From Cyanobium sp. M30B3 (lineage in GTDB: Bacteria; Cyanobacteriota; Cyanobacteriia; PCC-6307; Cyanobiaceae), in contig CP073761.1 in NCBI GenBank assembly GCA_018399015.1, forward strand, positions 2,418,001 through 2,482,000: a stretch of DNA of 64,000 bases, written 5' to 3'. The notes below the pieces were generated by a model, which worked only from the letters and a program-made list of their open reading frames with translations, searched no databases and was not told where the DNA came from. Made by a program: the position numbers and the translations under genes. Below, piece after piece: positions 21,807 through 39,611 of this stretch (position 1 is its first letter; the number at the start of each line of letters is the position of its first letter).

Positions 21807-22088
21807 ATGAACAAAGCAGACCTCGTCAATCTCGTGGCTGCCCGCACCGAGCTCACCAAGACCGACGTCGGTCTGGTGGTTGATGCCCTGATCGACACCA
21901 TCATCGATTCGGTGGTGGATGGCAAGAAGGTGTCGATCCTCGGCTTCGGCTCCTTCGAACCCCGCGACCGCTCCGCCCGCCAGGGTCTGAACCCCAAGAC
22001 CGGCGAGAAGATCAAGATCGAGGCCAAGCGGGTGCCCGCCTTCACCGCCGGCAAGATGTTCAAGGACAAGGTGCAGGGCGTCGGCTGA
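21807..22088 (+). CDS. hup: DNA-binding protein HU
   Basis: HU is a small histone-like dimer that bends and compacts DNA. The 93-residue sequence starts MNKADLVNLVAARTELTKTD and has the core GKKVSILGFGSFEPRDRSAR, the arm sequence GLNPKTGEKIKIEAKRVPAF and the end FTAGKMFKDKV. Length matches HU (about 90). The gluQRS frame overlaps its stop codon. Confidence 0.97.
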   Translation: MNKADLVNLVAARTELTKTDVGLVVDALIDTIIDSVVDGKKVSILGFGSFEPRDRSARQGLNPKTGEKIKIEAKRVPAFTAGKMFKDKVQGVG

Positions 22089-23083
22089 TCGCTGATTCCG
22101 GCCAACCCACCCCGCTGCGGCTGCCCGCCCACCTACGCGGGCAGCTGGATCTCGGCGCCGCCCTGCGCCAGCAGGGCTATCGCGGACGCTTCGCCCCCTC
22201 CCCCACCGGCTGCCTGCATCGCGGCAACCTGCGTACGGCGCTGTTGTCCTGGTTGGCCGCCCGGTTGGAAGGGGGTATGTGGCTGCTTCGCATCGATGAC
22301 CTCGACACCCCGCGCAACCGGCCGGGGGCTGAGCAGGCGATCCTGGCCGATCTGCGCTGGCTGGGCCTCCACTGGGATGGCCCGCTCCGGCGCCAGAGCG
22401 CCCGCCGGGGTGCGTACGCCACGGTGCTGTCCGCCCTGCGGCGCGCCGGCTGGCTCTATGCCTGCCGCTGCAGTCGCCGGATGCTGGCCGACATCTCCGC
22501 CCCCCACGGGGCGCCGCCGGTGTACCCGGGCCGCTGCCGTGACCTGGGCCTGGGTTGGGCGGCAAACTTCGATCGCTTGCCCAGCTGGCGCTGGCGCCTG
22601 CCGGCCGGGCCGATCCTGTGGCGGGAGCGCTTTGCCGGTTCCGGGCGGCTGGATGGCGCCAGCCAGGTGGGCGATGTGGTGTTGCGCCGCGCCGACGGTT
22701 TTCTGGCCTACCACCTGGCCACCGCCGTGGATGAACTCAGCCTGGGCATCGGCGAGGTGGTGCGCGGTGAGGACCTGTACTGGGCCACCGGCCCCCAGGT
22801 GGCGCTGATGCGGCTGCTGGGGGCTGAGCCGCCGGGCTATGGCCACGTGCCGCTCTGGCGCGATGCCCAGGGCCAGCGGCTGAGCAAGCGCGAGGGGGCC
22901 GAGGGGCTGTCGGGGATGCGCGAGCGCGGCCTGGATGCGGCGGCCGTGATCGGCGAGCTGGCCGCCAGTGCCGGCCTGGTGCCGGCGGGCAGCCGGCTCA
23001 GTGCGGCGGAACTGCTGCAGGAGCTCACTCCCGGCCTGTTCGCCGCGCGGCTGCGGGCCGCCGCGGCGGATCGGCAGTCTTAA
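22085..23083 (+). CDS. gluQRS: Glutamyl-Q tRNA(Asp) synthetase; start codon unclear
   Basis: GluQRS is a truncated glutamyl-tRNA synthetase that attaches glutamate to queuosine in tRNA-Asp. Seen: the class I HIGH region RGRFAPSPTGCLHRGNLRTA, LLRIDDLDTPRNRPGAEQ, a Cys-containing zinc region (YACRCSRRMLADI and GRCRDLG), VDELSLGIGEVVRGEDLYWA and the KMSKS equivalent RLSKREGAEGL. No ATG, GTG or TTG exists in frame between the hup gene and the HIGH motif. The first TTG (22244) would delete the active site. I therefore placed the start at CTG 22085, overlapping the hup stop codon. The true start may be another non-standard codon. Confidence 0.85.
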   Translation: MIADSGQPTPLRLPAHLRGQLDLGAALRQQGYRGRFAPSPTGCLHRGNLRTALLSWLAARLEGGMWLLRIDDLDTPRNRPGAEQAILADLRWLGLHWDGPLRRQSARRGAYATVLSALRRAGWLYACRCSRRMLADISAPHGAPPVYPGRCRDLGLGWAANFDRLPSWRWRLPAGPILWRERFAGSGRLDGASQVGDVVLRRADGFLAYHLATAVDELSLGIGEVVRGEDLYWATGPQVALMRLLGAEPPGYGHVPLWRDAQGQRLSKREGAEGLSGMRERGLDAAAVIGELAASAGLVPAGSRLSAAELLQELTPGLFAARLRAAAADRQS

Positions 23084-23162
23084 GGAAGCTTTCGGGATCG
23101 TTGGGCCCCAATCCCCCCACACTGGAGAGCATGTCCATCCGCTTCCCGCGAGCGCCGCAGCG

Positions 23163-23423
23163 ATGTCCGCCCTTCAGCAGCCCGAACTGGCGGCTGCCCC
23201 GGCCCCGTTGATTGATCAGACCAGTTCCGTGCTCCGCGAGGTGTGCCCGAGTTGTGGAGGCAGCGGCATGCTGCGGCTCGGCGACCAGCGCTTCCGCACC
23301 TGTCTCGACTGCCTCGGCCAGGGCCGTCTGCCGGCGGTGGCCTCCGCCACCACCGTGGCCGAGGTGCTCCAGCTCGACAGCTGCCGGCTCAACGCAGCTG
23401 CTTCTTCCGCTGCTGCCAGATGA
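23163..23423 (+). CDS. Small DnaJ-type zinc-finger protein
   Basis: The 86-residue protein carries two CxxCxGxG-type motifs, CPSCGGSG and CLDCLGQG, separated by 14 residues. This is one complete four-cysteine zinc site like half of the DnaJ central domain. N- and C-terminal parts are low-complexity. I recall similar proteins in other marine and freshwater Synechococcus. The role is unknown, with protein-disulfide or chaperone-related binding as guesses from the motif. Confidence 0.75.
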   Translation: MSALQQPELAAAPAPLIDQTSSVLREVCPSCGGSGMLRLGDQRFRTCLDCLGQGRLPAVASATTVAEVLQLDSCRLNAAASSAAAR

Positions 23424-23505
23424 AGAAGGCCGCGGTGCCCACCACCACCGCCAGGGGCGCGGCGGTGAGCAGAAGCAGGATCACGGCGGTCCAGTCGGTG
23501 TACAT
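23389..23505 (-). CDS. 38-residue single-TM protein
   Basis: From ATG 23505 the frame encodes MYTDWTAVILLLLTAAPLAV, then a further hydrophobic run, and ends FFIWQQRKKQLR. One TM helix followed by a basic C-terminal tail is the architecture of small photosystem or cytochrome b6f subunits, but I cannot match it to psbX, psbY, psbM, petN or petM. It overlaps the 3' end of the zinc-finger gene on the other strand by 35 bases and the proposed start of the next plus-strand gene by 8. These overlaps lower confidence. Confidence 0.5.
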   Translation of the reverse strand: MYTDWTAVILLLLTAAPLAVVVGTAAFFIWQQRKKQLR

Positions 23506-23809
23506 CGCTGCAGACGAAAACCGGGCCCATCATCCCAGGCGGTGGCTGCTTTGCTCACGCCCCCTGCTGCTGTTGTTGCCACTCCTGAGCCAGGTCCTGC
23601 TGGCCGCTCCAGCCCGGGCTGGGGTGGAGTTCGACAACTGCCAGCCCAGCGGCGATGGCGGCATCACCTGCGACACCCGCCCCACCGGCAACACCCGCAT
23701 GGACGATCAGGACGCCCGCTACGGCCTGCTCGACCAGGCCACCCCCGGCTGGAAGGAATTCGACCCCGCCGGTGGCGAGGGGGAGTTCTCGATCGAGGCG
23801 CCGTTCTGA
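23498..23809 (+). CDS. Small secreted protein, function unknown
   Basis: The C-terminal part VEFDNCQPSGDGGITCDTRP followed by TGNTRMDDQDARYGLLDQA and EFDP looks like a conserved cyanobacterial exported protein. It is preceded by a clear signal peptide (LLLLLPLLSQVLLAAPARAG, cleavage after ARA). Two Cys in the mature protein could form a disulfide. The start is uncertain: GTG 23498 gives a 103-residue precursor, and ATG 23420 (overlapping the previous stop as ATGA) would give a longer leader. No function is known to me. Confidence 0.65.
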   Translation: MYIAADENRAHHPRRWLLCSRPLLLLLPLLSQVLLAAPARAGVEFDNCQPSGDGGITCDTRPTGNTRMDDQDARYGLLDQATPGWKEFDPAGGEGEFSIEAPF

Positions 23810-23866: not shown

Positions 23867-26701
23867 ATGGCTGAGCAAAGCACCAGCCGGACCGATCCCA
23901 CCTACGACATCCTGCGCAGCGAGCGCCGGCCGCTCGACGCCCTGTTCAATCCCGGCTGCGTGGCGGTGATCGGTGCCAGTGAGCGCCCGGGCAGCGTGGG
24001 CCGCACCCTGCTCTGGAACCTGCTGCGCTCGCCCTTCGGCGGCACGGTGTACCCGGTGAACCCCCGCCGCCACAGCGTGCTGGGCGTGCACTGCTACGCC
24101 AGCGTGGCCGACGTGCCCGAGCGGGTGGACCTGGCCGTGATCGCCACGCCGGCCTCGGGCGTGCCCGAGGTGGTGGCGGCCTGCGCCGCCGCCGGGGTGC
24201 GCGCCGCCATCGTGATCTCCGCCGGTTTCCGCGAAGTGGGGCCGGAGGGTGCGGAGTTGGAGGGGCGGTTGCGCGATGCGCTGCGGGGTTCGGGCATGCG
24301 CCTGCTGGGACCCAACTGCCTGGGGCTGATGAACCCCCGCACCGGCCTCAACGCCAGCTTCGCCCCCTCCGAGCCGGCAGCGGGGCATGTGGGCTTTCTC
24401 AGCCAGTCGGGGGCGATCTGCACGGCGGTGCTCGACTGGAGCCGGCGGGAGAAGGTGGGCTTCAGCGCGTTTGTGTCGATGGGCTCGATGCTCGATGTGG
24501 GCTGGGGCGATCTGATCACCGAGCTCGGTGACGATCCCGCCACCCGCAGCATCGTGATCTACATGGAGGCAATCGGCGATGCCCGCGCCTTTCTCTCGGC
24601 GGCGCGGGAGGTGGCGCTCACCAAGCCGATCGTGCTGATCAAGGGGGGCCGCAGCGCCGAAGCCGCCCGGGCGGCGGCCTCCCACACCGGTGCCCTGGCC
24701 GGCAGTGACGCGGTGCTGGAGGCGGCGCTGCGGCGCTGCGGCGTGCTGCGGGTGGAGCGGCTCTCCGACCTGTTCGACCTGGCGGAGATGCTGGCCAAGC
24801 AGCCACGGCGGCCGGCCGGGCCGCGGCTGGCGATCCTCACCAATGCCGGTGGGCCGGGGGTGCTGGCCACCGATGCCCTGGTGCTCAGCGGCGGCGAGCT
24901 GGCCAGCCTCGATCCGGCCACCGTGGCGGCCCTCGATGCGGTGCTGCCGCCCCACTGGAGCCGTTCCAACCCGATCGACATCCTCGGCGACGCCGACCCG
25001 GAGCGCTACGGCCGGGCGATCGAGCTCGCCCTGGCCGACCCCAACAGCGACGGCCTGCTGGTGATCCTCACCCCCCAGGCGATGACCGACCCCGCCGCCA
25101 CCGCCGTGCGCCTGCGGGAGCTGGCGGCCCGCTCCAGCAAGCCGCTGGTGGCCAGCTGGATGGGCGGCGCGGAGGTGGCGGCCGGCGAGGACCTGCTCAA
25201 CCAGGCCGGCATCGCCACCAACGACTACCCGGACGCGGCGGCCCGGCTGTTCACCGCCCTGTGGCGCTACAGCTACAACCTGCGCGGCATCTACGAGACC
25301 CCCGCCCTGGTGCCCGAGTCCGAAGGGGGGGCGCCGGCGGCAGACGGAGCGGAGCGGCAGGACGGGCTGGCGGTGCTGCAGCGGGCCCAGGCCGAGGGGC
25401 GGGAGCTGCTCAGCGAGGCGGAGGCCAAGCAGGTGCTGGCCGCTGCCGGGATTCCGGTGGTGGACACCCGGCTGGCCGGCTCGCCGGAGCAGGCGGTGGC
25501 GGCTGCCGAGGCGATCGGCTACCCGGTGGTGCTCAAGCTCAACAGCGCCACCATCACCCACAAGACGGACGTGGGTGGCGTGCGCCTCGACCTGGCCGGA
25601 CCCGAGGCGGTGGCCGACGCCTACCGCACGATGGCCGTCACGGTGGGTGAGCGCTGCGGGCCGGAGGCCTTCGCCGGGGTGAGCGTGCAGCCGATGCTGC
25701 CCCGCGCCGACGGGTTGGAACTGATCGTGGGCAGCAGCCTCGATCCCCAGTTCGGGCCGGTGATCCTGTTCGGCAGCGGCGGCACCCTGGTGGAGGTGCA
25801 GCGCGACAGCGCCGTGGCCCTGCCGCCGCTGAACACCACCCTGGCGCGGCGGCTGATGGAGCAGACGCGGGTGTACCGGGCCCTGCAGGGGGTGCGCGGC
25901 GGGCCGCCGGCCGACCTGCCAGCCCTGGAACAGCTGCTGGTGCGGCTCAGCCGGCTGGTGCTGGAGCAGCCGGCGATCCGCGAGATCGACATCAACCCGC
26001 TGCTGGTGCTGCCCGGTGATCCCCGCCGCCCCCTGGTGGCCCTCGATGCCCGCATCGTGATCCAGCCCCTGGCGGGGGCCACCTGCAGCCTGCCCCGGCC
26101 GGCGATCCGGCCCTATCCCAGTGAATACGTGCGCCCCTGGCGGCTGCGCGACGGCACGGCGGTGACGATCCGGCCGATCCGTCCCGAGGACGAGCCGCTG
26201 GTGGTGGCCTTCCACCGCACCCTCTCGGAGGAGAGCGTGTACTACCGCTACTTCCACATGATGTCGCTGCAGCACCGCACCGCCCATGAGCGGCTGGTGC
26301 GCATCTGCTTCACCGACTACGAGCGCGAGCTGGCCCTGGTGGCGGACCGCCGCGATCCGGCCAGCGGCGAGCACGCCCTGCTGGCGGTGGGACGCCTCAG
26401 CCGGGTGCACGGCAGCAACGCCGCCGAGTTCTCGATGCTGGTGAGTGACGCGTATCAGCAGCAGGGGCTGGGCACCGAGCTGCTGGGCCAGCTGCTGCGC
26501 ATCGGCCGCGACGAGGGCATCGAGCGGGTCACGGCCGAGATCCTGCACGAGAACGGCGCCATGCAGCGGGTGTGCCGCAAGCTCGGCTTCCAGCTGCGCA
26601 ACACCCCGGAGGTGGTGGAGGCCTGGGTGGATCTGGCGGGCTGGCAGCTGCCGCTGGAGCAGGGTTCGCAGCCGGGCGCTCAGCTGGTGGGTGGCGCCTG
26701 A
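23867..26701 (+). CDS. ADP-forming acyl-CoA synthetase-like protein fused to GNAT acetyltransferase (PatZ/Pka type)
   Basis: The 944-residue protein combines an NDP-forming acyl-CoA synthetase with a C-terminal GNAT domain. Domains in order: CoA-binding ([20 protein letters not shown]), succinyl-CoA ligase-like ([16 protein letters not shown] and [20 protein letters not shown]), ATP-grasp ([40 protein letters not shown]), and GNAT from about residue 765 ([40 protein letters not shown]). This is the architecture of E. coli PatZ and Salmonella Pat, which acetylate lysines of metabolic enzymes. In many Pat proteins the synthetase half is a regulatory acetyl-CoA sensor. The gene converges on a deacetylase-family gene. 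Confidence 0.9.
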
Positions 26702-27663
26702 GCGCCCGGGCTTGCAGCCTGCAGCAGCGCCTCCAGGTGAGCCGCGCTGCTCTCCCCGAGGGCGCCGAGGTGGTAGCCCCCCTCCAGCACCGACACCAGC
26801 CGGCCGCCGGCGTGCTCGGCGGCCACGGCCAGGCAGGAGGCAGTGAGGGCGCCGTAGTCGGCGCTGTTGAGCTGGAAGCGGCCGAGGGGGTCGCGGCGGT
26901 GGCCGTCGAAGCCGGCCGAGAGCAGCAGCAGCTGCGGCCGGAAGCGGGCCGCGGCCGGCAGCAGGGCCTCCTCCAGGGTGCGCAGCACGGTGGTGCCGTC
27001 GCTGCCGGCGGGCAGGGGGCAGTTGAGGGTGGTGCCGCTGCCGCGGCCCTCGCCCCGCTCCGTTGCGGCGCCGCTGCCCGGGTAGTTGCCCCACTCGTGC
27101 ACGCTCAGATAGAACACGCTCGGGTCGCTCCAGAAGATCGCCTGGGTGCCGTTGCCGTGGTGCACGTCCCAGTCGACGATCAGCACCCGCTCCAGCCCGT
27201 GCACCGCCTGGGCATGGCGGGCGGCCAGGGCCACGTTGTTGAACACGCAGAAGCCCATGCCCCGCTCCGGCTCGGCGTGGTGGCCGGGGGGACGCACGGC
27301 GGCGAAGGCGTTGGCCAGGGTGCCCTGCAGCACCCCATCCACCGCCACCAGCACGCCGCCGGCGGCCAGCCGGGCCACGTCCTCGCTGTGCTCGCCGATG
27401 GCCGTGTCGCCGGTGGAGAGCTCGCTGCGGCCGTAGGCCCCATCCCGGCGCACGGTGTGCAGGTAGCCCTGGCTGTGGCAGCGCAGCAGTTCGGCGTCGC
27501 TGATCGGCCGCGGTGTGATCCGCTGGCAGCGCTGCAGCAGGCCCCGCTGGCCCAGGGCCTGCTCGATGGCGTCGAGCCGCTCGGGGCACTCGGGATGGTG
27601 GCTGCCGGTGTGGTGCAGGCGGAAGGCCGGATCCAGCAGCAGGCCGGTGGTGGGCATCAGCAT
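26680..27663 (-). CDS. Histone deacetylase-family (class II-like) amidohydrolase
   Basis: This zinc-dependent deacetylase-superfamily member (AcuC/AphA/HDAC fold) removes acyl groups from lysine or polyamines. The 327-residue protein shows [20 protein letters not shown], the catalytic His pair in [20 protein letters not shown], zinc ligands in [19 protein letters not shown] and [17 protein letters not shown], and EGGYHLGAL near the end. Start [12 protein letters not shown] (27663) is preferred, with ATG 27657 also possible. The 3' end overlaps the PatZ-like gene by 22 bases in convergent orientation. The pair could write and erase protein acetylation, which is inference from families and location. 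Confidence 0.92.
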
Positions 27664-27763
27664 CACCTCAACTCCCTGCAAGGCTTCCCCCACAATCGCT
27701 GACAGTTGCGTTTTTGCTGGCTATCGAGAAGGTGTGACTGGGCGGTTCCGCCGCCAGCAGCCC

Positions 27764-27853
27764 ATGGTGATGGAGCAGCCCATGGTGATGGAGCAGCCCA
27801 TGGTGATGGAGCCGCCCGTGGTGATGGAGCAGCCGATGGTGATGGCCTCCCCC
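27764..27853 (+). repeat. 18-bp tandem repeat covering the hoxE translation start (five units)
   Basis: Units ATGGTGATGGAGCAGCCC lie at 27764, 27782, 27800 (one change), 27818 (starts GTG, two changes) and 27836 (diverged end). They encode MVMEQP repeats in the hoxE frame. Units 1-4 end with GGAG followed six bases later by the first codon of the next unit. Each junction is therefore a Shine-Dalgarno plus start-codon cassette, and up to nine in-frame ATGs are available. Confidence 0.95.
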
Positions 27854-28359
27854 CAGCCCGGGGCAGAAGCGGCCCTGCCGGCCCAGGCGATAGAGCGCAC
27901 CAGCCGGCTGATCCGCCAGCACCGCGGCCGCGCCGATGCCCTGATCGAGGTGCTCCACCAGGTGCAGGAGCTCTACGGCTACCTGCCGGCGGCGGCCCTG
28001 GCCCAGGTGGCCCGGGAGCTGAAGCTGCCCCTCGCACGGGTGCACGGGGTGGCCAGCTTTTACCACCTGTTCCGCCTGGAGGCGCCCACCGCCCACCGCT
28101 GTGCGGTGTGCCTGGGCACGGCCTGCTTCGTGAAGGGGGGCGGCGAGCTGGTGGCGCGGCTGGAGCGGCGGCTGGGGCTGCGGCTCGATGACGCCGCCGG
28201 CAACGGCAGCTGGGCCCTGGAGCACGTGAGCTGCCTGGGGGCCTGCGGCCAGGCGCCGGTGCTGGTGGTGGACGGCCAGCTGGAACCGCGCCTGCCGATC
28301 GACGACCCGGCGGCCCTGGAGGCCCGCCTCGATGCGCTTGGCCTCAGCGGAGCGGCGCA

Positions 28360-28363
<4 letters not shown>
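27764..28363 (+). CDS. hoxE: Bidirectional hydrogenase diaphorase subunit HoxE
   Basis: HoxE is the NuoE-like 2Fe-2S subunit of the NAD(P)-linked [NiFe] hydrogenase HoxEFUYH, thought to relay electrons to ferredoxin/flavodoxin or the membrane. The core ALIEVLHQVQELYGYLPAAA, VHGVASFYHLFRLEAP, CAVCLGTACFVKGGGELV and VSCLGACGQAPVLVVD holds the four cluster cysteines (CxxxxC and CxxxC). Maximum length is 199 residues from ATG 27764. From ATG 27842 (MASPQPG) it is 173, which equals the usual HoxE length as I remember it, so the last ATG may be the main start. hoxF begins in its stop codon (ATGA). Confidence 0.93.
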
Positions 28364-29993
<1,630 letters not shown>

Positions 29994-29997
<4 letters not shown>

Positions 29998-30713
29998 GCG
30001 TGCACACCCTCACGGTGGACGGGGTGGAGGTGGCCGTGCCCGAGGGCGCCAGCCTGCTCGATGCGGTGCGGGCGGCGGGGGCCGAGCTGCCCACCCTCTG
30101 CCACCTCGATGGCCTCACGCCGGTGGGCGCCTGCCGGCTGTGCCTGGTGGAGCTGGAGGGCAGTGGCAAGCTGCAGCCGGCCTGTGCCACCGCCGCCGGC
30201 GAGGGCATGGCGGTGCTCACCCAGACGCCCCAGCTGAAGGAGTGGCGGCGGATGGCGGTGGAGCTGTTTTTCGCCGAGGGCAACCACGTGTGCGCCTTCT
30301 GCGTGGCCAACGGCAACTGTGAACTGCAGAACGTGGCGGTGGCGGTGGGGATGGACCACTCCCGCTTCCCGTACCAGTACCCCCAGCGGCAGGTGGATGC
30401 GTCCCATCCCCAGTTCGCGATCGACCACAACCGCTGCATCCTCTGCACCCGCTGTGTGCGGGTGTGCGACGAGATCGAGGGGGCCCACGTGTGGGACGTG
30501 GCCCACCGCGGCGCCGAATGCCGGATCATCGCCGGGCTGGACGAGCCCTGGGGTGAGGTGGGGGCCTGCACCTCCTGCGGCAAGTGCGTGGACGTGTGCC
30601 CCACCGGCGCCATCTTCCACAAGGAGGACACCACCGGTGAGAAGGCGCCGCACCGGGACCGGCCCCAGCTGCTGCGCACCGCCCGGGAACAGCACCAGTG
30701 GTTGAACCAGTGA
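29994..30713 (+). CDS. hoxU: Bidirectional hydrogenase diaphorase subunit HoxU
   Basis: HoxU is the NuoG-like iron-sulfur subunit that wires HoxF to the hydrogenase dimer HoxYH. The 239-residue protein has a plant-type 2Fe-2S domain ([20 protein letters not shown]), the His-Cys3 4Fe-4S motif ([16 protein letters not shown]), and a double 4Fe-4S ferredoxin region ([20 protein letters not shown] and [17 protein letters not shown]). All ligands are present. Its ATG overlaps the hoxF stop. Confidence 0.97.
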
Positions 30714-30727
30714 ACCCGGAGCCCGCC

Positions 30728-31303
30728 ATGACGACTTCCACCCCCAGGTTGCGTTTCGCCACGGTGTGGCTGGCCGGCTGCAGCGGCTGCCACATGTCGT
30801 TTCTCGATCTCGACGAGTGGCTGTTCGAGCTGGCGGCCCATGTGGACGTGGTGTTCTCGCCGGTGGCCAGCGACATCAAGACCTTCCCCGAGGGGGTGGA
30901 CGTGTGCCTGGTGGAGGGGGCGGTGGCCAACGCCGACAACCTCGAACTGGCGCTGCAGCTGCGCGAGCGCAGCCGCCTGGTGGTGTCGTTCGGCGACTGT
31001 GCCGTGACGGCCAACGTGCCGGGCCTGCGCAACCTCTGGGCCGGTGTGGACGGCGGCTCGCGCCAGAGCGTGCTCGATCGCGGCTATCTGGAGCTGGCCG
31101 ACACCGGCGCCCAGCATCCCCACGCGCCGGGGATCGTGCCGGAGCTGCTGGAGCGGGTGCTGCCGCTGCATGAGGTGATCCCGGTGGATCTGTATCTGCC
31201 CGGCTGCCCGCCGTCGGCCGAGCGCATCCGCGCCGCCATCGAGCCGCTGCTCCGCGGCGCGGCGCCGACGATGGAAGGCCGCGAGATGTTGAAGTTCGGC
31301 TAG
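30728..31303 (+). CDS. hoxY: Bidirectional [NiFe] hydrogenase small subunit HoxY
   Basis: HoxY carries the proximal 4Fe-4S cluster that feeds the Ni-Fe site. The 191-residue protein has [20 protein letters not shown] (first CxxC ligands), [36 protein letters not shown] and [20 protein letters not shown] with the remaining Cys ligands. ATG 30728 is preferred because GGAG lies six bases upstream. A GTG at 30710 overlapping the hoxU stop is an alternative. Confidence 0.95.
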
Positions 31304-31325
31304 CTGCCAGTAAGGAATCCCCCCC

Positions 31326-32786
31326 ATGACCCGCACGATCACGATCGACCCCGTCACCCGCATCGAGGGGCACGCCAAGATCACCCTGCACCTCGATGAA
31401 TCGGGCCGGCTGAGCGATGCCCGTTTCCACGTGGTGGAGTACCGGGGCTTCGAAACCTTCTGCGAGGGCCGGCCGTTCACCGAGATGGCGGGAATCACGG
31501 CGCGGATCTGTGGCATCTGCCCGGTGAGCCACCTGCTGGCGGCGGCGAAAACGGGCGACAAGCTGCTGGCGGTGCAGCCGCCACCGGCGGCGCGCAAGCT
31601 GCGGCGGATGCTGAATCTGGCCCAGCTCTGCCAGAGCCATGCCCTGTCGTTCTTTCACCTGAGCAGCCCCGATTTCCTGCTGGGTTGGGAGAGCGATCCG
31701 GCCAAGCGCAATGTGTTCGGCCTGATGGCGGCCGATCCCGACCTGGCCCGCGCCGGCATCCGCCTGCGGCAGTTCGGCCAGCAGGTGCTGGAGCTGCTGG
31801 GGGGCCGCAAGATCCATTCGGCCTGGGCGGTGCCCGGCGGGGTGCGCACGCCCCTGAGCGCCGAGGCGCGGGAGTGGATCCTGGGGCGTCTGCCGGAGGC
31901 CAAGGCCACGGTGGCCACCGCCCTGGCGCTCTACAAGGGGCTGCTGGATGGGCCGCTGCAGCGGGAACAGCGCACGTTTGGCGATTTCGATTCGTTGTTT
32001 ATGGGCCTGGTGGCGGCCGATGGCGGCTGGGAGTGCATCGAGGGGGCGATCCGCTTAATCGACAGCAGCGGCCGGATCGTGGCCGATGGTCTCAGCGAGG
32101 ACGACTACGCCAGCTACCTGGGCGAGGCGGTGGAGAGCTGGAGCTACCTGAAGTTCCCGTATTACAAGCCGCTGGGCTATCCGGAGGGCATCTACCGGGT
32201 GGGGCCCCTGGCGCGGCTGAACGTGTGCGAGCGGATCGGCACGGAATGGGCCGACCGGGAGCTGGACGAGTTCCGCCAGCGCAGCGGCACCGCGGCGAGC
32301 GGCGGCCGGATCGTGACGTCGTCGTTTGCGTTCCACCACGCCCGGCTGGTGGAGATCGTGGCCTGTCTGGAGGGCATCGAGCAGCTGGTGGTGGACGACA
32401 GCCTGATGGGCGATCGCATCCGCGCCCGCGCCAGCCTCAACGCCAACGAGGCGGTGGGGGTGAGCGAGGCGCCGCGGGGCACCCTGTTTCACCACTACCG
32501 GGTGAACGACGACGGCCTGATCACCCGGGTGAACCTGATCATCGCCACGGGCCAGAACAACCTGGCGATGAACCGCACGGTGGCCCAGATCGCCCGGGAG
32601 TTCATCACCGAGCCGGTGGCCGAAGGCGCCGAGATCCCCGAGCCCCTGCTCAACCGGGTGGAGGCGGGCATCCGCTGCTTCGACCCCTGCCTGAGCTGCA
32701 GCACCCACGCCGCCGGCCAGATGCCGCTGCGCATCTCCCTGCTGGATGCCGGCGGCAGGGTGCTGGCGGAGCGGGTGAGGGATTGA
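31326..32786 (+). CDS. hoxH: Bidirectional [NiFe] hydrogenase large subunit HoxH
   Basis: HoxH holds the Ni-Fe(CN)2CO site where H2 is made or split. The 486-residue precursor has the first ligand motif [20 protein letters not shown] and the C-terminal ligand motif [11 protein letters not shown]. The 25 residues beyond that His form the extension that the endopeptidase HoxW removes after nickel insertion. The sequence starts [20 protein letters not shown], typical of NAD-linked group 3d enzymes. It is the last gene of the hox operon here, and the maturation genes resume 12.7 kb further on. Confidence 0.97.
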
Positions 32787-33138
32787 GGGGGTTGGGGGCT
32801 TGACCAGTGCGAGGACGAGGTTGGGATCAGGACTGCGGCCCAGGTTCTTTGTAGCCGTTGGAACGGTGATGGGCGGGTCCGTATAAGACGCCATCGCAAG
32901 CTGGCGGCTCAGCGAAAGCCATTGCCGGGGAGGGGTGCTCGGCAAGTTGCTACCAGGAAGCAGTTGATTTAGACTGCTGGGAAGGCTAGGAGCGGAGGCT
33001 TACACGGGTCCGCCCAAATACATGTTATTCGAAGTGGTGGTGCTGCTGAAGTGACTAAAATCTTGGCATCCGCTCTTCGTCAGCCCTGATGCGTCTCGAC
33101 AAAAACATGCCAACTCTACATCCTTAATCGACAGGCCA
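32787..33138. other. Intergenic boundary between the hox operon and AT-rich accessory DNA
   Basis: Base composition changes visibly within this 352-base gap, from GC-rich at the hoxH end to AT-rich after about 32950. CGGGTCCG occurs twice in direct orientation (32874-32881 and 33005-33012). No coding frame, tRNA or clear terminator is seen. It is the likely left junction of the accessory block. Confidence 0.55.
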
Positions 33139-34029
33139 ATGCTATACAGACTAAAACGTTGCCAGAGTCAGCCTGCCTCTAACAATACTGGCAGTGACGC
33201 GATGCTTTACAGAGGAGTGGCTTACTCATCTGCCAGCAGAGACCTAGACGATAAGCGTCTATTTTTCTCCCAGGCAATCTCCCACAATAGCTCTGATAGA
33301 AGTGAAGAAGGGGAGACATTTAGGACCCAGAGTGAATGGAATCGAGTTCGCCAAGAACTTCAGCTCCCTAGAGACGGCAATGACACCCAGGTTACCCACG
33401 ACCGGTTCTTCCAGAGGGCAGATCAGTATGCCCGAAGCTGCTATTTTATAAGCTGCTGGTCATTCTCCGAATCACTAGCTAGCGACTTTGCGTATCAGTT
33501 TTCCGACAAAGCAGTTTTATCAATTGCTAAAGATGATCTGGAAAGTGCATTTCACAGTTCAGTTGCATATTGGAATTCACTTCAACCAGGCGAATGGGAG
33601 ATGATTAACGATGATGGATCCCAGAACCTTGATTGGGATCCAAGGTACGTTGGGTACGCGACTGGATCGGTAAACTATGTTAAAACTAGTGAGCTAAACG
33701 GTTTTTTGCCATTCAGGCTGGCAAGAGCCATGAGGCTCCCTGATTACTTTGAGAATGAGGAAGAATGGCGAATTGCACTTGATTTATCTCTCGTTCCTTC
33801 GTCTGTTTCCACTGCTGCTTTGCTTGAGACGGAGCTGATGCCAAGCTTTCTCACAGAAGCGATGCGTCCTACTCATGAACCTTTACACGCGGAGCCTGAG
33901 GCATCGCAGGCTGAACTAAGGCCAATGATTGAGATCAGTACAACGAACTTTCCAAATTACGAAAGGGGACTCTGGCTTAACAATTGTGATCTCCGTGCCT
34001 ATAGAAGCTTTCAATTTCATAGATTATAA
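33139..34029 (+). CDS. Uncharacterised protein, possibly DUF2971-like
   Basis: The 296-residue protein is encoded by DNA far richer in A/T than the core genes around it, a sign of transfer. The order of features (LYRGVAYSSASRDLDDKRLF, then CYFISCWSFSESLASDFAYQ, VGYATGSVNYVK, YFENEEEWRIAL) resembles DUF2971 proteins, in which an f-x-x-CxS segment and an e-E-WR(I/L) segment recur. The match is only a pattern impression. ATG 33202 (MLYRGVAY) is an alternative start. No signal peptide or TM is visible. It is the first of three AT-rich genes in the same direction. Confidence 0.5.
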   Translation: MLYRLKRCQSQPASNNTGSDAMLYRGVAYSSASRDLDDKRLFFSQAISHNSSDRSEEGETFRTQSEWNRVRQELQLPRDGNDTQVTHDRFFQRADQYARSCYFISCWSFSESLASDFAYQFSDKAVLSIAKDDLESAFHSSVAYWNSLQPGEWEMINDDGSQNLDWDPRYVGYATGSVNYVKTSELNGFLPFRLARAMRLPDYFENEEEWRIALDLSLVPSSVSTAALLETELMPSFLTEAMRPTHEPLHAEPEASQAELRPMIEISTTNFPNYERGLWLNNCDLRAYRSFQFHRL

Positions 34030-34152
34030 TTGATTCAGTTGACTGTTGTGCCCGCATAACATCAAGATGCAGCGATCGGGATTGCAGACTCGATTGTCCT
34101 TGTTCTAAATTCTCCCCGCCGCTGATCTTGAGCGTTATCCATTTCATTGCCT

Positions 34153-34980
34153 ATGACGCCTGCTGAAACCTTAATGCATACGACCGTCCGGCTTGAGTGC
34201 TCGCTGGATGGGAATCGTCACTCCACCGGGACGGGGTTCTTCTTCTCGTTCAAGGTTAATGACAATACCCACGTGCCACTCATCGTCACCAACAAGCACG
34301 TCATAGACAAATCAAAGGTCGGCGCCTTCGTTTTAACGAAGAGTAACGAGAATGGCGAACCGCTTCTTGGTCAAACCGAGCGAATCGTCCTCGACAATTT
34401 TGAAAGCCTCTGGATAAAGCATCCTGAGGCGAACGTTGATCTGGCAGTCTTTCCAATTGCCCCGCTCTATCATCAAGCAGAGGCGAAGGGAGTGAAATTT
34501 TTCGCTCCGCCAATCGGCGAAGACCTACTGCCCACCCCAGAAAAACTTGCCGATCTCTCGGGTCTCGAAAACATAACCATGATCGGCTACCCGAACGGCA
34601 TTTGGGATGAAAAAAACAACATGCCTATCGTAAGGCGGGGCATCACAGCCACGAATCCGAAGAACGACTATAACGGCCTTCCCATTTTCGTTATTGACTG
34701 CGCCTGCTTCCCGGGTTCAAGTGGAAGTCCCGTTCTCATCTTTGACCAAGGCGGCTACCTCGACGCAAAGGGCAATCTCAATCTCGGGGGTGGCCGGCTC
34801 ATCTTGCTTGGCGTCTTGTTCGCAGGCCCGCAGCACGTCGCTGAAGGAGAAATTCAAACCATTGAAGTCCCCCTTGCCCAAATTCCAATCAGCCTGTCAA
34901 AGATTCCAAACAACCTTGGGTTCGTTGTTAAGGCCAGCAAGATTGCGGATTTTCGGAAATTCTTTATCCCAAATGGCTAA
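34153..34980 (+). CDS. Trypsin-like serine protease domain protein
   Basis: The 275-residue protein has the chymotrypsin-fold triad in order: His in PLIVTNKHVIDKSKVG, Asp in EANVDLAVFPIAPL, and Ser in CACFPGSSGSPVLIFDQGG. No signal peptide, TM or PDZ domain is visible, so unlike Deg/HtrA proteases it is probably cytoplasmic. Stand-alone trypsin-like domains of this kind occur in defence islands as effector proteases. Its place in an AT-rich cassette next to a phage-type protein and a restriction system agrees with that, but a defence role is inference. The start is ATG 34153 (MTPAETLMHTTVRL). Confidence 0.75.
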   Translation: MTPAETLMHTTVRLECSLDGNRHSTGTGFFFSFKVNDNTHVPLIVTNKHVIDKSKVGAFVLTKSNENGEPLLGQTERIVLDNFESLWIKHPEANVDLAVFPIAPLYHQAEAKGVKFFAPPIGEDLLPTPEKLADLSGLENITMIGYPNGIWDEKNNMPIVRRGITATNPKNDYNGLPIFVIDCACFPGSSGSPVLIFDQGGYLDAKGNLNLGGGRLILLGVLFAGPQHVAEGEIQTIEVPLAQIPISLSKIPNNLGFVVKASKIADFRKFFIPNG

Positions 34981-35188
34981 CCCATCATTTCACCGGATCT
35001 GCGCGGAAAACCGCGCAGGCCGGTGGATTCAAACGTTAGGCCTGCGAAAGAGCCCCCATGTAGGTACTTGTACATACTGTTCCGGTAGATGCGCACCCTC
35101 GCCCTAGATATGGTGGGACAGGTAGGGTTTTCCGCACTAGGTACACCATGGCTAGCGCCTTAAGTTTGGAACACTAAGACTCACACCC

Positions 35189-36154
35189 ATGGCATCGGAC
35201 ATGCCACAGCCACAGCCTCAGCCTTCAAAGGAAGTGCTTCAAATCGCTCGACAAGGGGTGCCTGCGGCACAGATGACCCTGTTCCCAGTAACCGAGGTAG
35301 AGGTTGATGGAATAGGGATGGGCGTTCTTAGTGATGGCACCCCATACCTAACACTTAGGGGCCTAGCGAGAATGTGTGGCGTGGATCATGTTGTGCTTCT
35401 GCGCCTTGCCAACAACTGGGATACCGAGAAAGATAAACCTCGTGGAGTAAAGATTAGGGAGCTTCTTGCGGCACAGGGTCACAATGGAGAACGCCTTGAT
35501 CTAAGAACAAGCCAAACTGGAATCGAGACGCATGCCTACGTCGACTCGGTTTGCATGGCAATTCTTGAGTACTACGCGTTTGAGGCCACCCAAGGCGATA
35601 ACGAGGTAGCGCTTAGGAACTATCGCCTGCTTGCAAGGTATTCATTTAGGTCGTTTATCTACAACAGATGTGGATACGACCCAGATCAGCACATTCCCGA
35701 CTCATGGAAGAACTTTCACGAGCGAGTGCTGTTGAATGACCAAGTCCCAATCGGATATTTTTCAATCTTTCGCGAGATTGCCGATCTAGTTGTTCATATG
35801 ATCCAAAGTGGATGCCCGCTCGACAATCATACGGTTCCAGATGTTAGCATTGGGAAGCTCTGGAGTAACTATTGGAGCGAAAGTAATCTCGAAGCTGAGC
35901 ATGGCCAAAGGCTCAAGCATCCACACGATTACCCAAGTTGGTTCCCCCAGGCCATGGCTAACCCAGTAGAGGCTTGGATCTATCCCGTAAGTGCACTGGG
36001 TAGTTTTCGGATATGGCTACACACTCACTATGTCCCTCGCTCCTTCCCTAGGTATCTCAAGCAGAAGGTGAAGGCGGGCGTTTTCCTTCCTTCAAGAGCT
36101 GAGCTCCTTATTCATTCAGTTTCCCAAAGATCCCTCACACCTTCAAGGAAATAG
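35189..36154 (+). CDS. Phage-type protein, possibly BstA-like abortive-infection protein
   Basis: The 321-residue protein begins with a Pro/Gln-rich leader and a putative DNA-binding region (GTPYLTLRGLARMCGVDHVV, then LLRLANNW). A conserved-looking C-terminal half follows (HIPDSWKNFHERVLLNDQVP, IGYFSIFREIADLVVHMIQS, VPDVSIGKLWSNYW, YPSWFPQAMANPVEAWIYPV). That half, with its PDxS-G--W and YP-x-FPQ elements, resembles what I remember of BstA, the prophage-encoded abortive infection protein with an N-terminal KilA-N-like domain, and related phage proteins. An alignment is required to confirm it. Codon use is AT-rich compared with neighbours, again suggesting transfer. Confidence 0.5.
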   Translation: MASDMPQPQPQPSKEVLQIARQGVPAAQMTLFPVTEVEVDGIGMGVLSDGTPYLTLRGLARMCGVDHVVLLRLANNWDTEKDKPRGVKIRELLAAQGHNGERLDLRTSQTGIETHAYVDSVCMAILEYYAFEATQGDNEVALRNYRLLARYSFRSFIYNRCGYDPDQHIPDSWKNFHERVLLNDQVPIGYFSIFREIADLVVHMIQSGCPLDNHTVPDVSIGKLWSNYWSESNLEAEHGQRLKHPHDYPSWFPQAMANPVEAWIYPVSALGSFRIWLHTHYVPRSFPRYLKQKVKAGVFLPSRAELLIHSVSQRSLTPSRK

Positions 36155-36538
36155 GCTACACAATTACACTCTAGAGCTGATCTTCCAAGACGCATGAGCA
36201 GGGATGGCTATCTCTAAGCGAGGCCTAGCATCCAGATGCAGAAGGCGGGAGCAAGAAATACTGTGATCTACCATCAGCATGTACCCGCTTCTGATCTGGG
36301 GCGCTTCAGTTGACAGCAGAAAGCACCGCTCGCTCCTCGCTCTGCTTTCTGCTGGCGCTGAGCATGGCGTCAAGCGCATGTTACAGCCCCTAAGCCCAGC
36401 CGGACTTTCTCCTCCGAGCAACTGCCCTTTAGCTGCATCACCTTGCCATTCATCCGACTGGGATCAGCCCACCTCCGGGCACCCTTGCCCCGGCCGTAAT
36501 CCTTCTGGCATGCTGAGTCGTTAGAACTGCTCTATCCG
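36155..36538. other. Intergenic region upstream of hsdM with a 12-bp inverted repeat
   Basis: This 384-base gap has no convincing gene. CAGCAGAAAGCA (36314-36325) and TGCTTTCTGCTG (36343-36354) form a perfect 12-bp inverted repeat with a 17-base loop. No T-tract follows, so it looks more like an operator or recombination site than a terminator. The base composition moves back from AT-rich to GC-rich across the gap. Confidence 0.6.
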
Positions 36539-38329
36539 TTGACGTACGCCGCTGAGAACCCACCGAGCGACGCCGTAAGCAACGACGACCTCGCTGACGA
36601 GTTCCTCGGCGCGCTCACAGCCTTGGGCGGATCAGCGGGCAACGGCCGCCTGCGGGAAACCCTGGAGTGGGACGAAGCCAGCTACGAAGAGGTGAAGGGC
36701 GATTTGCTGAGCCGCAGGCTGATCGTGCCCGGCCGTGGCCGTGGCGGTTCGGTGGCCCTGGCGGATGAGACGGCGGTGGAGGCCTCCAGCAATGGCCAGG
36801 CCGCCAGCCGCGCCCCCCGCACCCGTGCCGCTAACGGTTCCCGCGCCGCCTCGGCCTCCAGCTCCTTTGAGCAGGCGTTCCGCGCCATCGACGACTGCCT
36901 GCGCAAGGAGGCCGGCTGCGGCACCGAGCTCGACTACACCGAGCAGTCCTCCTGGCTGCTGTTCCTCAAGTACCTTGACGGGCTCGAAGACGACAAGGCC
37001 ACCGTGGCCGCCCTGGAGGGCCGCACACATACGCCCATCCTCGAGGGGGCCTACCGCTGGAACAGCTGGGCGGCCCCGAAGAACGCCAGCGGCCAGCTGG
37101 ATCATCACGCCGCCCTCACCGGCGACGACCTGCGCGACTTCGTGAACCAGCGCCTGTTCCCCTACCTGGAGCGCTTCAAGCAGAGCGCCAGCGGGCCGAA
37201 CACGATCGAATACAAGATCGGTGAGATCTTCGGCGAACTGCGCAACAAGATCAGCAGCGGCTACAACCTGCGCGAAATCATCGATCTGATGGATGGCCTG
37301 CAGTTCCGCTCCCAGGCCGAGAAGCACGAGCTCTCGATGCTCTATGAGGAAAAGATCAAGCGCATGGGCAACGCCGGCCGCAACGGCGGTGAGTACTACA
37401 CGCCCCGGCCGCTGATCCGCGCCGTTGTGCAGGTGGTGAACCCCCAGATCGGTGAGTCGGTCTACGACCCGGCGGTGGGCTCCGCCGGCTTCCTGTGCGA
37501 AGCCTTCGAATACATGCGCAAGGGCGGCGCCACCGGCCGCGAACTCAGCACCGAAGACCTCGACACCCTTCAAAACCGCACCTTCACCGGCAAGGAGAAG
37601 AAGAGCCTCGCCTATGTGATCGCGATCATGAACATGATCCTCCACGGCATCGAGGCGCCCCGGGTGCTGCACACCAACACCCTCACCGAAAACCTCAGCG
37701 ATGTGCAGGAGCGCGACCGCTTCGATGTGATCCTCGCCAACCCGCCGTTCGGCGGCAGCGAACGCAAGGAGGTGCAGCAGAACTTCGAGATTCGCAGCGG
37801 TGAAACCGCGTTTCTGTTTCTCCAGCACTTCATCCGCCTGCTGCGGGCCGGCGGCCGCGCTGGCGTGGTGATCAAAAACACGTTTCTCTCCAACACCGAC
37901 AACGCCTCGGTGGCCCTGCGCCAGAAGCTGCTCACCGACTGCGACCTGCACACCGTGCTCGACTGCCCCGGCGGCACCTTCCAGGGCGCGGGGGTGAAAA
38001 CGGTGGTGCTGTTCTTCGAGAAGGGATCGCCCACCCGCAAGGTGTGGTTCTACCAGCTCGATCCCGGCCGCAACCTGGGTAAGACCAATCCGCTCAACGA
38101 CCGCGACCTGGCGGAGTTCGTGGAGCTGCAGAAAACCTTTGCTGATTCGCCCAAGAGCTGGAGTGTGGAGGTGGACTCCATCGATCATCAGAATTGGGAT
38201 CTGTCGGTGAAGAATCCCCATGGGGGTAATGAGGTGGCGCTGCGCAGCCCGCAGGAGATCATTGCGGAGATTGTGGCATTGGATGCGGAGAGTGTGCAGG
38301 TGCTGGAGAGGATCAGGGCTTTGGTATGA
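36539..38329 (+). CDS. hsdM: Type I restriction-modification methyltransferase HsdM with N-terminal wHTH-like extension
   Basis: HsdM, with HsdS, methylates adenines in the recognition site. The 596-residue protein has the N-terminal helical HsdM domain (AFRAIDDCLRKEAGCGTELD), GGEYYTPRPLIRAVVQVVNP, SAM motif DPAVGSAGFLCEAFEYM and the N6-adenine catalytic motif ILANPPFGG. The first 75 or so residues (DDLADEFLGALTALGGSAGN through SRRLIVPGRGRGGSVALAD) look like an added winged-helix domain followed by an Ala/Ser linker. The start is TTG 36539. hsdS begins in its stop codon (ATGA). Confidence 0.94.
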   Translation: MTYAAENPPSDAVSNDDLADEFLGALTALGGSAGNGRLRETLEWDEASYEEVKGDLLSRRLIVPGRGRGGSVALADETAVEASSNGQAASRAPRTRAANGSRAASASSSFEQAFRAIDDCLRKEAGCGTELDYTEQSSWLLFLKYLDGLEDDKATVAALEGRTHTPILEGAYRWNSWAAPKNASGQLDHHAALTGDDLRDFVNQRLFPYLERFKQSASGPNTIEYKIGEIFGELRNKISSGYNLREIIDLMDGLQFRSQAEKHELSMLYEEKIKRMGNAGRNGGEYYTPRPLIRAVVQVVNPQIGESVYDPAVGSAGFLCEAFEYMRKGGATGRELSTEDLDTLQNRTFTGKEKKSLAYVIAIMNMILHGIEAPRVLHTNTLTENLSDVQERDRFDVILANPPFGGSERKEVQQNFEIRSGETAFLFLQHFIRLLRAGGRAGVVIKNTFLSNTDNASVALRQKLLTDCDLHTVLDCPGGTFQGAGVKTVVLFFEKGSPTRKVWFYQLDPGRNLGKTNPLNDRDLAEFVELQKTFADSPKSWSVEVDSIDHQNWDLSVKNPHGGNEVALRSPQEIIAEIVALDAESVQVLERIRALV

Positions 38330-39483
38330 AGACGGGGTGGGATACAATGCCATTGGGCGATGTGTGTCCGATATCGAATCGGAAGCCGGAGGTATTTACA
38401 GGACTACGTCGCTATTTCTCAACGGGCGCGGTTGGATCGGAAGGCGAATTGTCAGAGCCAGATCTTGTTGACTATGCTAACCGACCAAGTCGAGCCGGAT
38501 GCATGCCTGAAGTCGGTGACATTGGTTTCGCGCGGATGAAAGGAACTAAGAAAGTAATTCTCATCGACTCATCGCTAAAGGGTTCGTTGTTTTCGACGGG
38601 ATTCTGCTTTGTTACGCCGCGATCAAATGTCGAATCACGTTACGCTTTCTATTTTCTTACGTCTGATAATTTTCAGAGCCAGAAGGATGACGTTGCGGGT
38701 GATGGAATAATGGGAGGAGTCAGGAACTCTCACGCGGCAGCTATCGGAATGCCGCTACCCACGTTGGCTGAACAGCAGCGAATAGTCGGCCTGCTTGACG
38801 ATGTATTTCAGGGCCTCGCCGTCGCCAAGGCGAGCGCCGAAAAGAACTTAGAAAATGCCCGTTCTCTCTTCAAAAGCCAACTCCAAGTCGTCTTCAGCCG
38901 GCGCGGCCGGGGTTGGGTTGATAGGCGGTTAGATGCAATAGCTGAGTTCTCGCAGGGGATACAGGTCGGCTTGGGTGACCAATCGAGCACGCCTATAACA
39001 GGCATGGTTCGGTTTATCCGAATCATTGACTATACCCAGGGAACAGATGATATCCGATATGTCCCAGATCCGGGTCCCCGATATTGGGCGGATAGATCCG
39101 ATATTGTAATGGTCCGCTATGGGTCGCCGGGATTGGTGGGCCGAGGAATCGAAGGAGTGATCGCGAACAATCTTTTCAAGATATCCATTCGCGACGACTC
39201 ATTGACAAATGACTTCTTGGCTTACTTCTTGGGACAAGAAACGGTTCAAAAATTCCTAAGTAGTCAAGGCTCATCCACCATGCCCGCGCTGACTTTTAAG
39301 CAGCTTGGTGCAGTGGTTGTTTCGTTCCCGCATGAAATCGAGCAACAGAACGAGATTGTCACCAAGCTCGACTCCTTCCGCCAAGAAACTCAACGACTCA
39401 CCCACCTCTACGAACGCAAACTCGCCGCTCTGGAGGATCTAAAGAAGACCCTTCTGCACCAGGCGTTCAACGGCGAGCTCTGA
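38326..39483 (+). CDS. hsdS: Type I restriction-modification specificity subunit HsdS
   Basis: HsdS sets the DNA target of the complex. The 385-residue protein has two target-recognition domains (about 1-150 and 205-340), each followed by a conserved helical spacer (AEQQRIVGLLDDVFQGLAVA and EIEQQNEIVTKLDSFRQETQ). It ends LYERKLAALEDLKKTLLHQA, typical of HsdS. The recognition-domain DNA is visibly more AT-rich than hsdM or hsdR, as expected from domain swapping. It is coupled to hsdM by an ATGA overlap. The recognition sequence cannot be deduced. Confidence 0.93.
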   Translation: MKTGWDTMPLGDVCPISNRKPEVFTGLRRYFSTGAVGSEGELSEPDLVDYANRPSRAGCMPEVGDIGFARMKGTKKVILIDSSLKGSLFSTGFCFVTPRSNVESRYAFYFLTSDNFQSQKDDVAGDGIMGGVRNSHAAAIGMPLPTLAEQQRIVGLLDDVFQGLAVAKASAEKNLENARSLFKSQLQVVFSRRGRGWVDRRLDAIAEFSQGIQVGLGDQSSTPITGMVRFIRIIDYTQGTDDIRYVPDPGPRYWADRSDIVMVRYGSPGLVGRGIEGVIANNLFKISIRDDSLTNDFLAYFLGQETVQKFLSSQGSSTMPALTFKQLGAVVVSFPHEIEQQNEIVTKLDSFRQETQRLTHLYERKLAALEDLKKTLLHQAFNGEL

Positions 39484-39539
39484 GCTCCAGGCTTTGGCCT
39501 CCAGTTCATCGCGCCTTCAGCCATCCAACCAGTCCAGAC

Positions 39540-39566
39540 GCCGCCATGACGGCGGCCGTTTCTTCA
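39540..39566 (+). terminator. Possible terminator after hsdS
   Basis: A 6-bp GCCGCC/GGCGGC stem with loop ATGAC (39540-39556) is followed by CGTTTCTTCA. The T-tract is short and interrupted, so termination may be weak. It sits between the hsdMS operon and the convergent yoeB gene. Confidence 0.45.
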
Positions 39567-39611
39567 CTCTGCCCGGACGCACGGTCGGCCTGCCGACAAC
39601 TCGCCGCTGTC

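Follow-up and report, generated by a model that had tools for sequence, protein, structure and literature searches.

Whether an acetyltransferase-like gene and a histone deacetylase (HDAC)-family gene that meet tail to tail beside a hydrogenase operon form a functional pair is the question raised by a 64,000-nucleotide stretch of the Cyanobium sp. M30B3 genome (contig CP073761.1, positions 2,418,001 to 2,482,000 of the forward strand). We refer to this whole stretch as the window and count coordinates from its first letter; the genome, a single contig of 3.18 Mb, is denoted G000, and relatives, loci, and genera are coded G###, L###, and g##, respectively. Open reading frames (ORFs) and domain searches confirmed what an earlier note on this DNA had described, namely, acetyltransferase and HDAC genes that overlap by 22 bp at their 3' ends next to a hydrogenase locus. 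The two genes, which we call the writer and the eraser, are arranged as follows:

23867-26701, plus strand: writer, 944 aa from an ATG start, with N-terminal ADP-forming acyl-CoA synthetase-type domains and a C-terminal GNAT domain (ORF and domain search)
26680-27663, minus strand: eraser, a classical Zn-dependent deacetylase with the HDAC fold, 327 aa from the ATG at 27663 (ORF and domain search); GTG 27693 is an alternative start
26680-26701, both strands: convergent 22-bp overlap of the two frames at their 3' ends (ORFs)

We hold, with slightly better than even confidence, that this pair is a mobile two-gene cassette that writes and erases lysine acetylation. The CoA-binding domains of the writer would probably sense acetyl-CoA, its GNAT domain would acetylate lysines of as yet predicted protein substrates, and the eraser, an HDAC-family hydrolase, would strip the acetyl groups from presumably the same sites, with both genes inherited, lost, and moved together. 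The location between orf188 and the hox operon points to a probable role in acetyl-CoA and redox control during fermentation. The domains, the active-site residues, the co-inheritance of the genes, and the constraint that the writer shows in its GNAT and CoA regions all appear to support this reading.

We surveyed 151 genomes of the family (Cyanobiaceae) with E-value cut-offs of <= 1e-60 for the writer, <= 1e-35 for the eraser, and <= 1e-40 for hoxH. By raw counts, uncorrected for kinship and genome size, the writer is present in 16 genomes, the eraser in 18, and hoxH in 45. All 16 writer genomes also encode the eraser, and all writer and eraser genomes fall among the 45 with hoxH. Three further genomes (G001, G011, and G012) were added from searches of 60 relatives, resulting in 19 family genomes with both genes. 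The genes are convergent and adjacent in 13 of these 19 (the G001 writer is frameshifted) and non-adjacent in five, all from genus g6: G123, where a single contig carries them some 115 kb apart; G017, where they are on two contigs, with the surroundings inspected; and G145, G163, and G178, where they are on different contigs, with contig ends unchecked. In the remaining genome (G120), both genes are located at contig ends, and adjacency was left unscored. None of the 19 genomes has a writer without an eraser; an eraser without a full writer was found in three genomes, namely, G085 (eraser only), G096 (single contig, genus g6, with an intact eraser and only writer residues 869-940 in the convergent position), and G003 (a draft 78% complete and 6% contaminated, in which the eraser is kept and no writer was found), and these cases are few and related. 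This distribution supports a pairing that is not due to chance, with writer and eraser behaving as a unit within the family.

The overlap comprises 22 bp in G000, 28 bp in G004, G035, G155, and G172, 43 bp in G005 and G103, 64 bp in G011 and G012, 73 bp in G088, 4 bp in G180, and 0 bp in G009. Each of the 11 non-zero values among these 12 genomes leaves a remainder of 1 when divided by 3; the arrangement thus seems to be inherited, and this regularity fits a single origin followed by indels that kept both frames. By itself, a 22-bp overlap is unremarkable because such short convergent overlaps are ordinary in the window, where hypD (55100-56299, plus strand) and a PhyH-like ORF (56221-57336, minus strand) share 79 bp at their 3' ends (56221-56299); the notable part is the conserved pairing.

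Comparison of the insertion site across relatives involves the following flanking genes:

21807-23809, plus strand: left flank common to relatives with and without the pair, consisting of an HU-like gene (21807-22088), a GluQ-like gene (22244-23083), and orf188 (ending at 23809)
27764-28363, plus strand: hoxE, divergent from the eraser gene, start codon provisional (best NCBIfam match)
28360-32786, plus strand: hoxF, hoxU, and hoxY (by order) and hoxH (family match)

The HU and GluQ labels are our assumption from gene order and motifs rather than from a family search, and the same holds for the names hoxF, hoxU, hoxY, and hoxW. For the ORF that follows the eraser, HoxE is the top NCBIfam match, under the cut-off (169.1 of 224 bits). 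The genes orf744, orf270, HU-like, GluQ-like, orf188, and hox occur in the same order in G000, G004, G005, G009, G011, and G103 (orf188 was undetected in G009, and orf744 lies beyond the G004 stretch); G035 agrees as far as covered, contig ends interrupt the flanks of G001, G003, and G012, and in G088 only the hox side matches. In G002, G006, G173, and G079, the same flanks enclose an empty site with no gene-sized gap between orf188 and hoxE, and neither the writer nor the eraser was found elsewhere in these four genomes at the family survey thresholds. In a tree of Acs and Ack, the nearest relative of G000 is the empty-site genome G079 (support 97/95), and G009 falls together with two other empty-site genomes, G002 and G006 (100/100). 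Provided that this two-gene tree is correct, more than one event has added or removed the pair as a block.

The pair is also found away from hox: in G155, G172, and G180, the convergent genes lie in 20-kb stretches without hox, which is located on other contigs. The proteins of G155 and G004 are 90.6% identical for the eraser, 84.9% for Acs, and 80.8% for hoxH, compared with 74.8%, 89.3%, and 92.1%, respectively, for G000 and G004. The writer and eraser trees both join G155/G172 with G004, G005, G011, and G012 (100/100 and 90/97, respectively), and the Acs and Ack tree places G155/G172 outside a supported set that holds G004 and G005. Monophyly of genus g1 is rejected for both genes (approximately unbiased test, p = 1.1e-5 for the writer and 6.6e-5 for the eraser), with sequences of g24 and g58 nested inside. 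The writer and eraser trees agree in the main groups, and the two genes appear to have moved together.

The writer combines, in order, the Pfam domains CoA_binding_2, Succ_CoA_lig, Ligase_CoA_2, ATP-grasp_5, and GNAT. Residue positions and domain limits were derived from alignments with Protein Data Bank (PDB) sequences:

23924-25276, plus strand: CoA-binding, Succ_CoA_lig, and ligase-CoA domains, about residues 20-470 (domain search, alignment)
24683-24685, plus strand: His273 in the swinging loop SHTG, equivalent to H256 of 8WZU (alignment)
25484-25714, plus strand: ATP-grasp lid, about residues 540-616, most of which is missing through in-frame deletion in G004, G011, and G012
25559-25561, plus strand: His565, equivalent to H535 of 8WZU (alignment)
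26129-26641, plus strand: GNAT domain, about residues 755-925 (domain search, alignment)
26426-26428, plus strand: Glu854, counterpart of E. coli PatZ E809 (numbered by counting along the alignment)

Glu854, the counterpart of PatZ E809, which we take to be catalytic, together with a Q-x-x-G-x-G loop (QQQGLG), gives the writer the features of type I GNAT acetyl transfer. The swinging-loop SHTG aligns without gaps with 8WZU and 4XYL, and the HK motif of the ATP-grasp domain aligns with 8WZU; the position of His273 corresponds to a gap in E. coli PatZ (9it0/9isq). According to PMC11494057, 8WZU is phosphorylated at two residues, H256 and H535, and PMC8556138 describes the synthetase domains found in GNATs of types I and II as inactive because they lack the catalytic histidine. 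In an alignment of 36 writer homologues (two from G040 and one, L102, without a GNAT domain), His273 is present in all 36, the GNAT glutamate in all 35 that carry the domain, and His565 in 32. The four exceptions are G005, where His565 is substituted, and G004, G011, and G012, where roughly 70 residues, His565 and most of the ATP-grasp lid among them, are deleted in frame (judged against subdomain 3 of 8WZU). The writer did not reach the cut-offs of the NCBIfam equivalogs for acetate or hydroxyacid CoA ligases (TIGR02717, 523.5 of 567.15 bits; NF045493, 526.9 of 1300 bits). Because both His273 and His565 are present, we treat the writer as a protein of type I architecture and do not call it a Pat; it may be bifunctional, both a synthetase and an acetyltransferase, given that it keeps the two phospho-histidines reported to be lacking in Pat-type enzymes.

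We estimated pairwise omega (the ratio of nonsynonymous to synonymous rates) by the Nei-Gojobori method separately for the CoA part, the grasp core, and the GNAT domain. For the grasp core, omega is 0.43 for G004/G012, 0.52 for G004/G011, 0.75 for G005/G004, 0.24 for the close pair G012/G011, and 0.45 for the mixed pair G005/G155; in five pairs that include none of G004, G005, G011, and G012, it is 0.05-0.25. In the four pairs within the decaying lineage, the CoA part shows values of 0.13-0.25 and the GNAT domain values of 0.24-0.34; for the three with a raised grasp-core value (G004/G012, G004/G011, and G005/G004), these ranges are 0.19-0.25 and 0.24-0.33, respectively. Judging from these sequences, the ATP-grasp part is decayed in the four relatives, and the CoA and GNAT parts are constrained, so that selection seems to keep CoA binding and acetyl transfer in this lineage, with the eraser still adjoining. 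No relaxation is seen in the ATP-grasp part of the window writer, and this protein may be bifunctional.

The eraser consists of a single Hist_deacetyl domain (PF00850, E = 1e-96), with site residues assigned by alignment:

27277-27282, minus strand: His128-His129, the catalytic HH pair
Within 26680-27663, minus strand: D166, H168, D253, gatekeeper L260, and Y297

The alignment and a small tree covered 16 of the 22 eraser-bearing family genomes (partial G001 and G003 were dropped, and G120, G145, G163, and G178 were left out). The HH pair, the D-x-H and Asp Zn ligands, and the Tyr are conserved in all 16 proteins, as is the gatekeeper Leu, which occurs as DPLG in 15 of them and as DPLA in one (PLG in the window). 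The suggestion in the earlier note of a local write/erase pair is therefore partly supported and seems right in kind, through the unit-like behavior of the genes (co-presence, agreeing trees, and joint relocation) and the conserved catalytic residues.

To place the eraser among its relatives, a large HDAC tree was built from 50 of 80 loci, the 80 being the best of 585 relatives. The window-type erasers form one clade (support 98) near planctomycete and acidobacterial proteins, and 20 common cyanobacterial, CddA-like HDACs form a separate clade (100), which rules out the window eraser as a CddA orthologue. The HDACs of family genome G123 and of Synechococcus sp. BO 8801 form a pair with 100% support; the HDACs listed outside the family are mostly 38-47% identical to the window eraser. 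The window-type eraser was likely acquired from another phylum, with no particular donor assigned. For L014, one of the 20 CddA-like HDACs, the best PDB match is 5ZMP, with His126, His127, and Phe136; 5ZMP is probably CddA of Synechococcus sp. PCC 7002, and the numbering fits that in PMC12224894. The genome additionally encodes a second HDAC-family protein of another type (L002, G000:C1:370695-371480), with 34% identity and 9rje as the best PDB match.

Beyond the family, we surveyed 291 genomes of the class (writer E <= 1e-100, HDAC E <= 1e-40) and detected the writer in 147 and an HDAC in 237. At E <= 1e-30, an HDAC is encoded in 142 of the 147 writer genomes, 140 of which are outside the family. 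The positions of the two genes were compared by eye in 138 genomes (the writer position is unlisted in G209 and G264), and they were adjacent in one, although many of these genomes are drafts and contig ends were unchecked. In this genome, G041, the genes are co-directional, the HDAC stop codon precedes the writer ATG by 47 bp, and the HDAC is CddA-like (37% identity). The pairing thus appears to be mainly a family trait, and a general cyanobacterial arrangement is ruled out by the class-wide survey; conservation of the arrangement, on which the earlier note had made its proposal depend, holds within the family and not outside it. In other phyla, among the same best 80 of 585 HDAC relatives with flanks of up to 10 kb, a single locus, L102 from Lentisphaerae, contains a synthetase homologue at E <= 1e-30, located 4.4 kb from the HDAC and devoid of a GNAT domain.

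Several points weigh against a write/erase cassette. The substrates and activities of both proteins are predictions, and HDAC-fold relatives also hydrolyze small amides, according to PMC11532494. The rarity of adjacency outside the family counts on the same side, as do the five class genomes with a writer and no HDAC at E <= 1e-30 (G285, G299, G316, G346, and G359). That the eraser persists in G085, G096, and the draft G003 with no complete writer implies that it has other work. Finally, in the pair G000/G035, omega is lower for the grasp core (0.23) than for the CoA part (0.32) and the GNAT domain (0.34), so in that comparison the role of the synthetase half may be just as important.

A bolder version of the cassette and its strongest rival both involve the synthetase half. 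In the bolder version, to which we give a low probability, a portable cassette carries a bifunctional writer, one half of which catalyzes acetyl-CoA + ADP + Pi <-> acetate + ATP and the other acetylates proteins; the writer would be tolerated in the family only with the eraser, and one lineage would be turning Pat-like as it loses the synthetase half. The intact synthetase half of the window writer may indeed also interconvert acetyl-CoA and acetate with ATP. Against dependence of the writer on the eraser stand the five class genomes named above and the small number of family cases, which are related to one another. Equally unlikely, in our estimate, is that the writer is chiefly an ADP-forming acetyl-CoA synthetase yielding acetate and ATP in dark fermentation, with a regulatory GNAT domain and an HDAC that is a passenger or acts on another substrate. 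The conserved counterparts of the 8WZU phospho-histidines (PMC11494057), the strongly constrained grasp core in G000/G035, and the NifJ-like POR and hydrogenase genes in the window are all compatible with this role. However, four relatives lost the histidine, three of them with the lid, and still keep the gene, the GNAT residues, and the neighbor; the equivalog cut-offs were unreached; and acetate kinase is encoded in all 16 family writer genomes, including G000, so the writer is not a unique acetate route, which weakens the case for it as the sole one.

Somewhat less probable is that the writer and the eraser are functionally unrelated and ride together on a recombining hoxEF block. Alleles were compared in seven occupied and four empty genomes (G012 and G088 were left out). 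HoxE of G000 is 82.7-92.8% identical to that of the six other occupied genomes and 47.3-73.6% identical to that of the four empty ones; for HoxF, the ranges are 88.0-91.2% and 63.2-78.0%, and hoxH splits less sharply (88.8-94.4% and 82.4-91.9%). G009 and G002 are alike in the flanks (orf744 piece, 92.8%; orf270, 90.1%; gluQ, 86.9%) and unlike in hoxE (72.1%) and hoxF (77.4%). Across 26701-30713 and the corresponding relatives (L167-L170, L172, L174, L188, L189, L193, and L194), the hoxE/hoxF alleles track the presence of the pair and not species kinship. Given this allele sharing, the pair and hoxEF seem to have spread as a block by recombination, and hitchhiking could explain the co-movement near hox, a further point against the cassette. 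It does not explain the convergent copies that G155, G172, and G180 keep away from hox, and the agreement of the writer and eraser trees in the main groups also speaks for a functional link.

A slightly smaller probability still attaches to the eraser being a small-amide or polyamine hydrolase instead of a protein deacetylase. In PMC11532494, Cluster 1, a broad cluster that takes in small-amide hydrolases, includes dimethoate and propanil hydrolases, each of which also turns up as a PDB match of the eraser. On the other side, the same text ties the Glu (PEG) gatekeeper of HDAC10 and the Ile (PIS) gatekeeper of bacterial enzymes to polyamine substrates and reports that Leu in HDAC10 raises lysine deacetylation. 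The Leu shared by all 16 aligned family erasers argues against a polyamine deacetylase by gatekeeper type, and restriction to polyamines or small amides, the refuting case envisaged in the earlier note, looks less likely. Among PDB entries, the eraser matches HDAC6 (sum of two domains, the better one at about 222 bits) and 5ji5 (251.5 bits over one domain, function unstated) most strongly. Antisense switching between writer and eraser through the overlap, also raised in the earlier note, is highly improbable, since despite the overlap in 11 of 12 genomes in constant phase and a pattern scan of 26400-28000 that found no terminator, making read-through possible, and no promoter (weak evidence either way), the overlap varies between 4 and 73 bp in those 11 and is lacking in G009, the genes are non-adjacent in the five g6 genomes, and the hypD pair has a longer one.

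Returning to the write/erase cassette, the closest known counterpart is the AcuA/AcuC system, in which a GNAT enzyme that acetylates lysines is opposed by a classical Zn deacetylase (PMC8556138 and PMC13121692). In Bacillus, as in the window, acetyltransferase and Zn deacetylase genes occur together, although here they are adjacent and co-inherited within the family only. According to the same sources, the Bacillus genes form an acuABC operon that includes acuB, with acsA upstream in reverse orientation, whereas the window pair is convergent and acs is not adjacent to it (Acs is encoded at C1:1739268, about 0.7 Mb away). The type I architecture of the writer and the hox neighborhood also differ from the AcuA setting. 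By analogy, our best reading is that the window pair would work like AcuA/AcuC without being classed as a member; judged by sequence, the variant features would be a writer of type I architecture with an intact synthetase, convergent order, cassette mobility, and the hox setting.

The writer resembles Pat/PatZ (YfiQ) of Salmonella and E. coli in its synthetase-like N-terminus, C-terminal GNAT domain, and the glutamate aligned with PatZ E809 but keeps the swinging-loop histidine where PatZ has a gap; the Salmonella eraser is the sirtuin CobB (PMC12224894), unlike the HDAC next to the window writer. With the ADP-forming acyl-CoA synthetases 8WZU and 4XYL, it shares the domain order and both catalytic histidines, differing in the extra GNAT domain and in the unreached equivalog cut-offs. 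The eraser shares with CddA of Synechococcus sp. PCC 7002 the classical Zn deacetylase fold and the HH/Tyr residues, and differs in lying outside the fully supported clade of CddA-like HDACs. For cyanobacterial lysine acetylation, a 2025 review (PMC12224894) lists a single confirmed writer (cGNAT2) and a single confirmed eraser (CddA) and states that cyanobacteria lack CobB and that other candidates are unexplored. Among the literature matches listed, titles and abstract openings mention no such gene pair and no histidine-retaining type I GNAT, which is not proof of absence from print.

Rightwards of the pair, hoxEFUYH is followed by hyp genes and a NifJ-like enzyme. Pfam matches in the window include the nickel-hydrogenase large subunit, HypA, HypF, HypD, and CobW/HypB-type, AIRS/HypE-type, and NifJ-like POR proteins; the putative hoxW had no Pfam match. 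The region between the eraser and hoxE contains one further feature:

27696-27723, plus strand: intergenic block TCGCTGACA-N11-GCTGGCTA (sequence scan)

This block was found in 8 of 31 scanned sequences, always at the HDAC-hoxE junction; G088 has the junction and not the block. At the start of hoxE (27764-27847), tandem ATGGTGATGGAGCAGCCC repeats encode a Met-rich N-terminal extension that eight aligned relatives lack. In genus g24 (L172:17118-17420 and L174:4335-4637), a short segment with about 50% identity to a piece of HoxF sits between orf188 and the writer gene. Between hoxH and the putative hoxW (33000-45400), the picked ORFs have a third-position G+C content below that of most of the window, perhaps reflecting an insertion of foreign DNA. 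A dihydroorotate dehydrogenase-like gene (54093-55121) directly follows the NifJ-like gene.

As for targets of the pair, acetyl-CoA synthetase (Acs) is a candidate. It is encoded in 135 of the 151 family genomes, including G000, where it carries the motif PKTRSGK, which we take to be of the Pat site type. Hox and NifJ are candidates by neighborhood alone, and three genomes (G155, G172, and G180) have the pair away from hox. The gain and loss of the pair among close relatives provide natural plus and minus strains for target finding, and the histidine-retaining writer together with its lid-deleted relatives offers a direct test of the change from a synthetase to a regulatory acetyltransferase. 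If the writer is bifunctional, fermentative acetyl-CoA flux would be read directly into protein acetylation, which the neighboring HDAC would reset.

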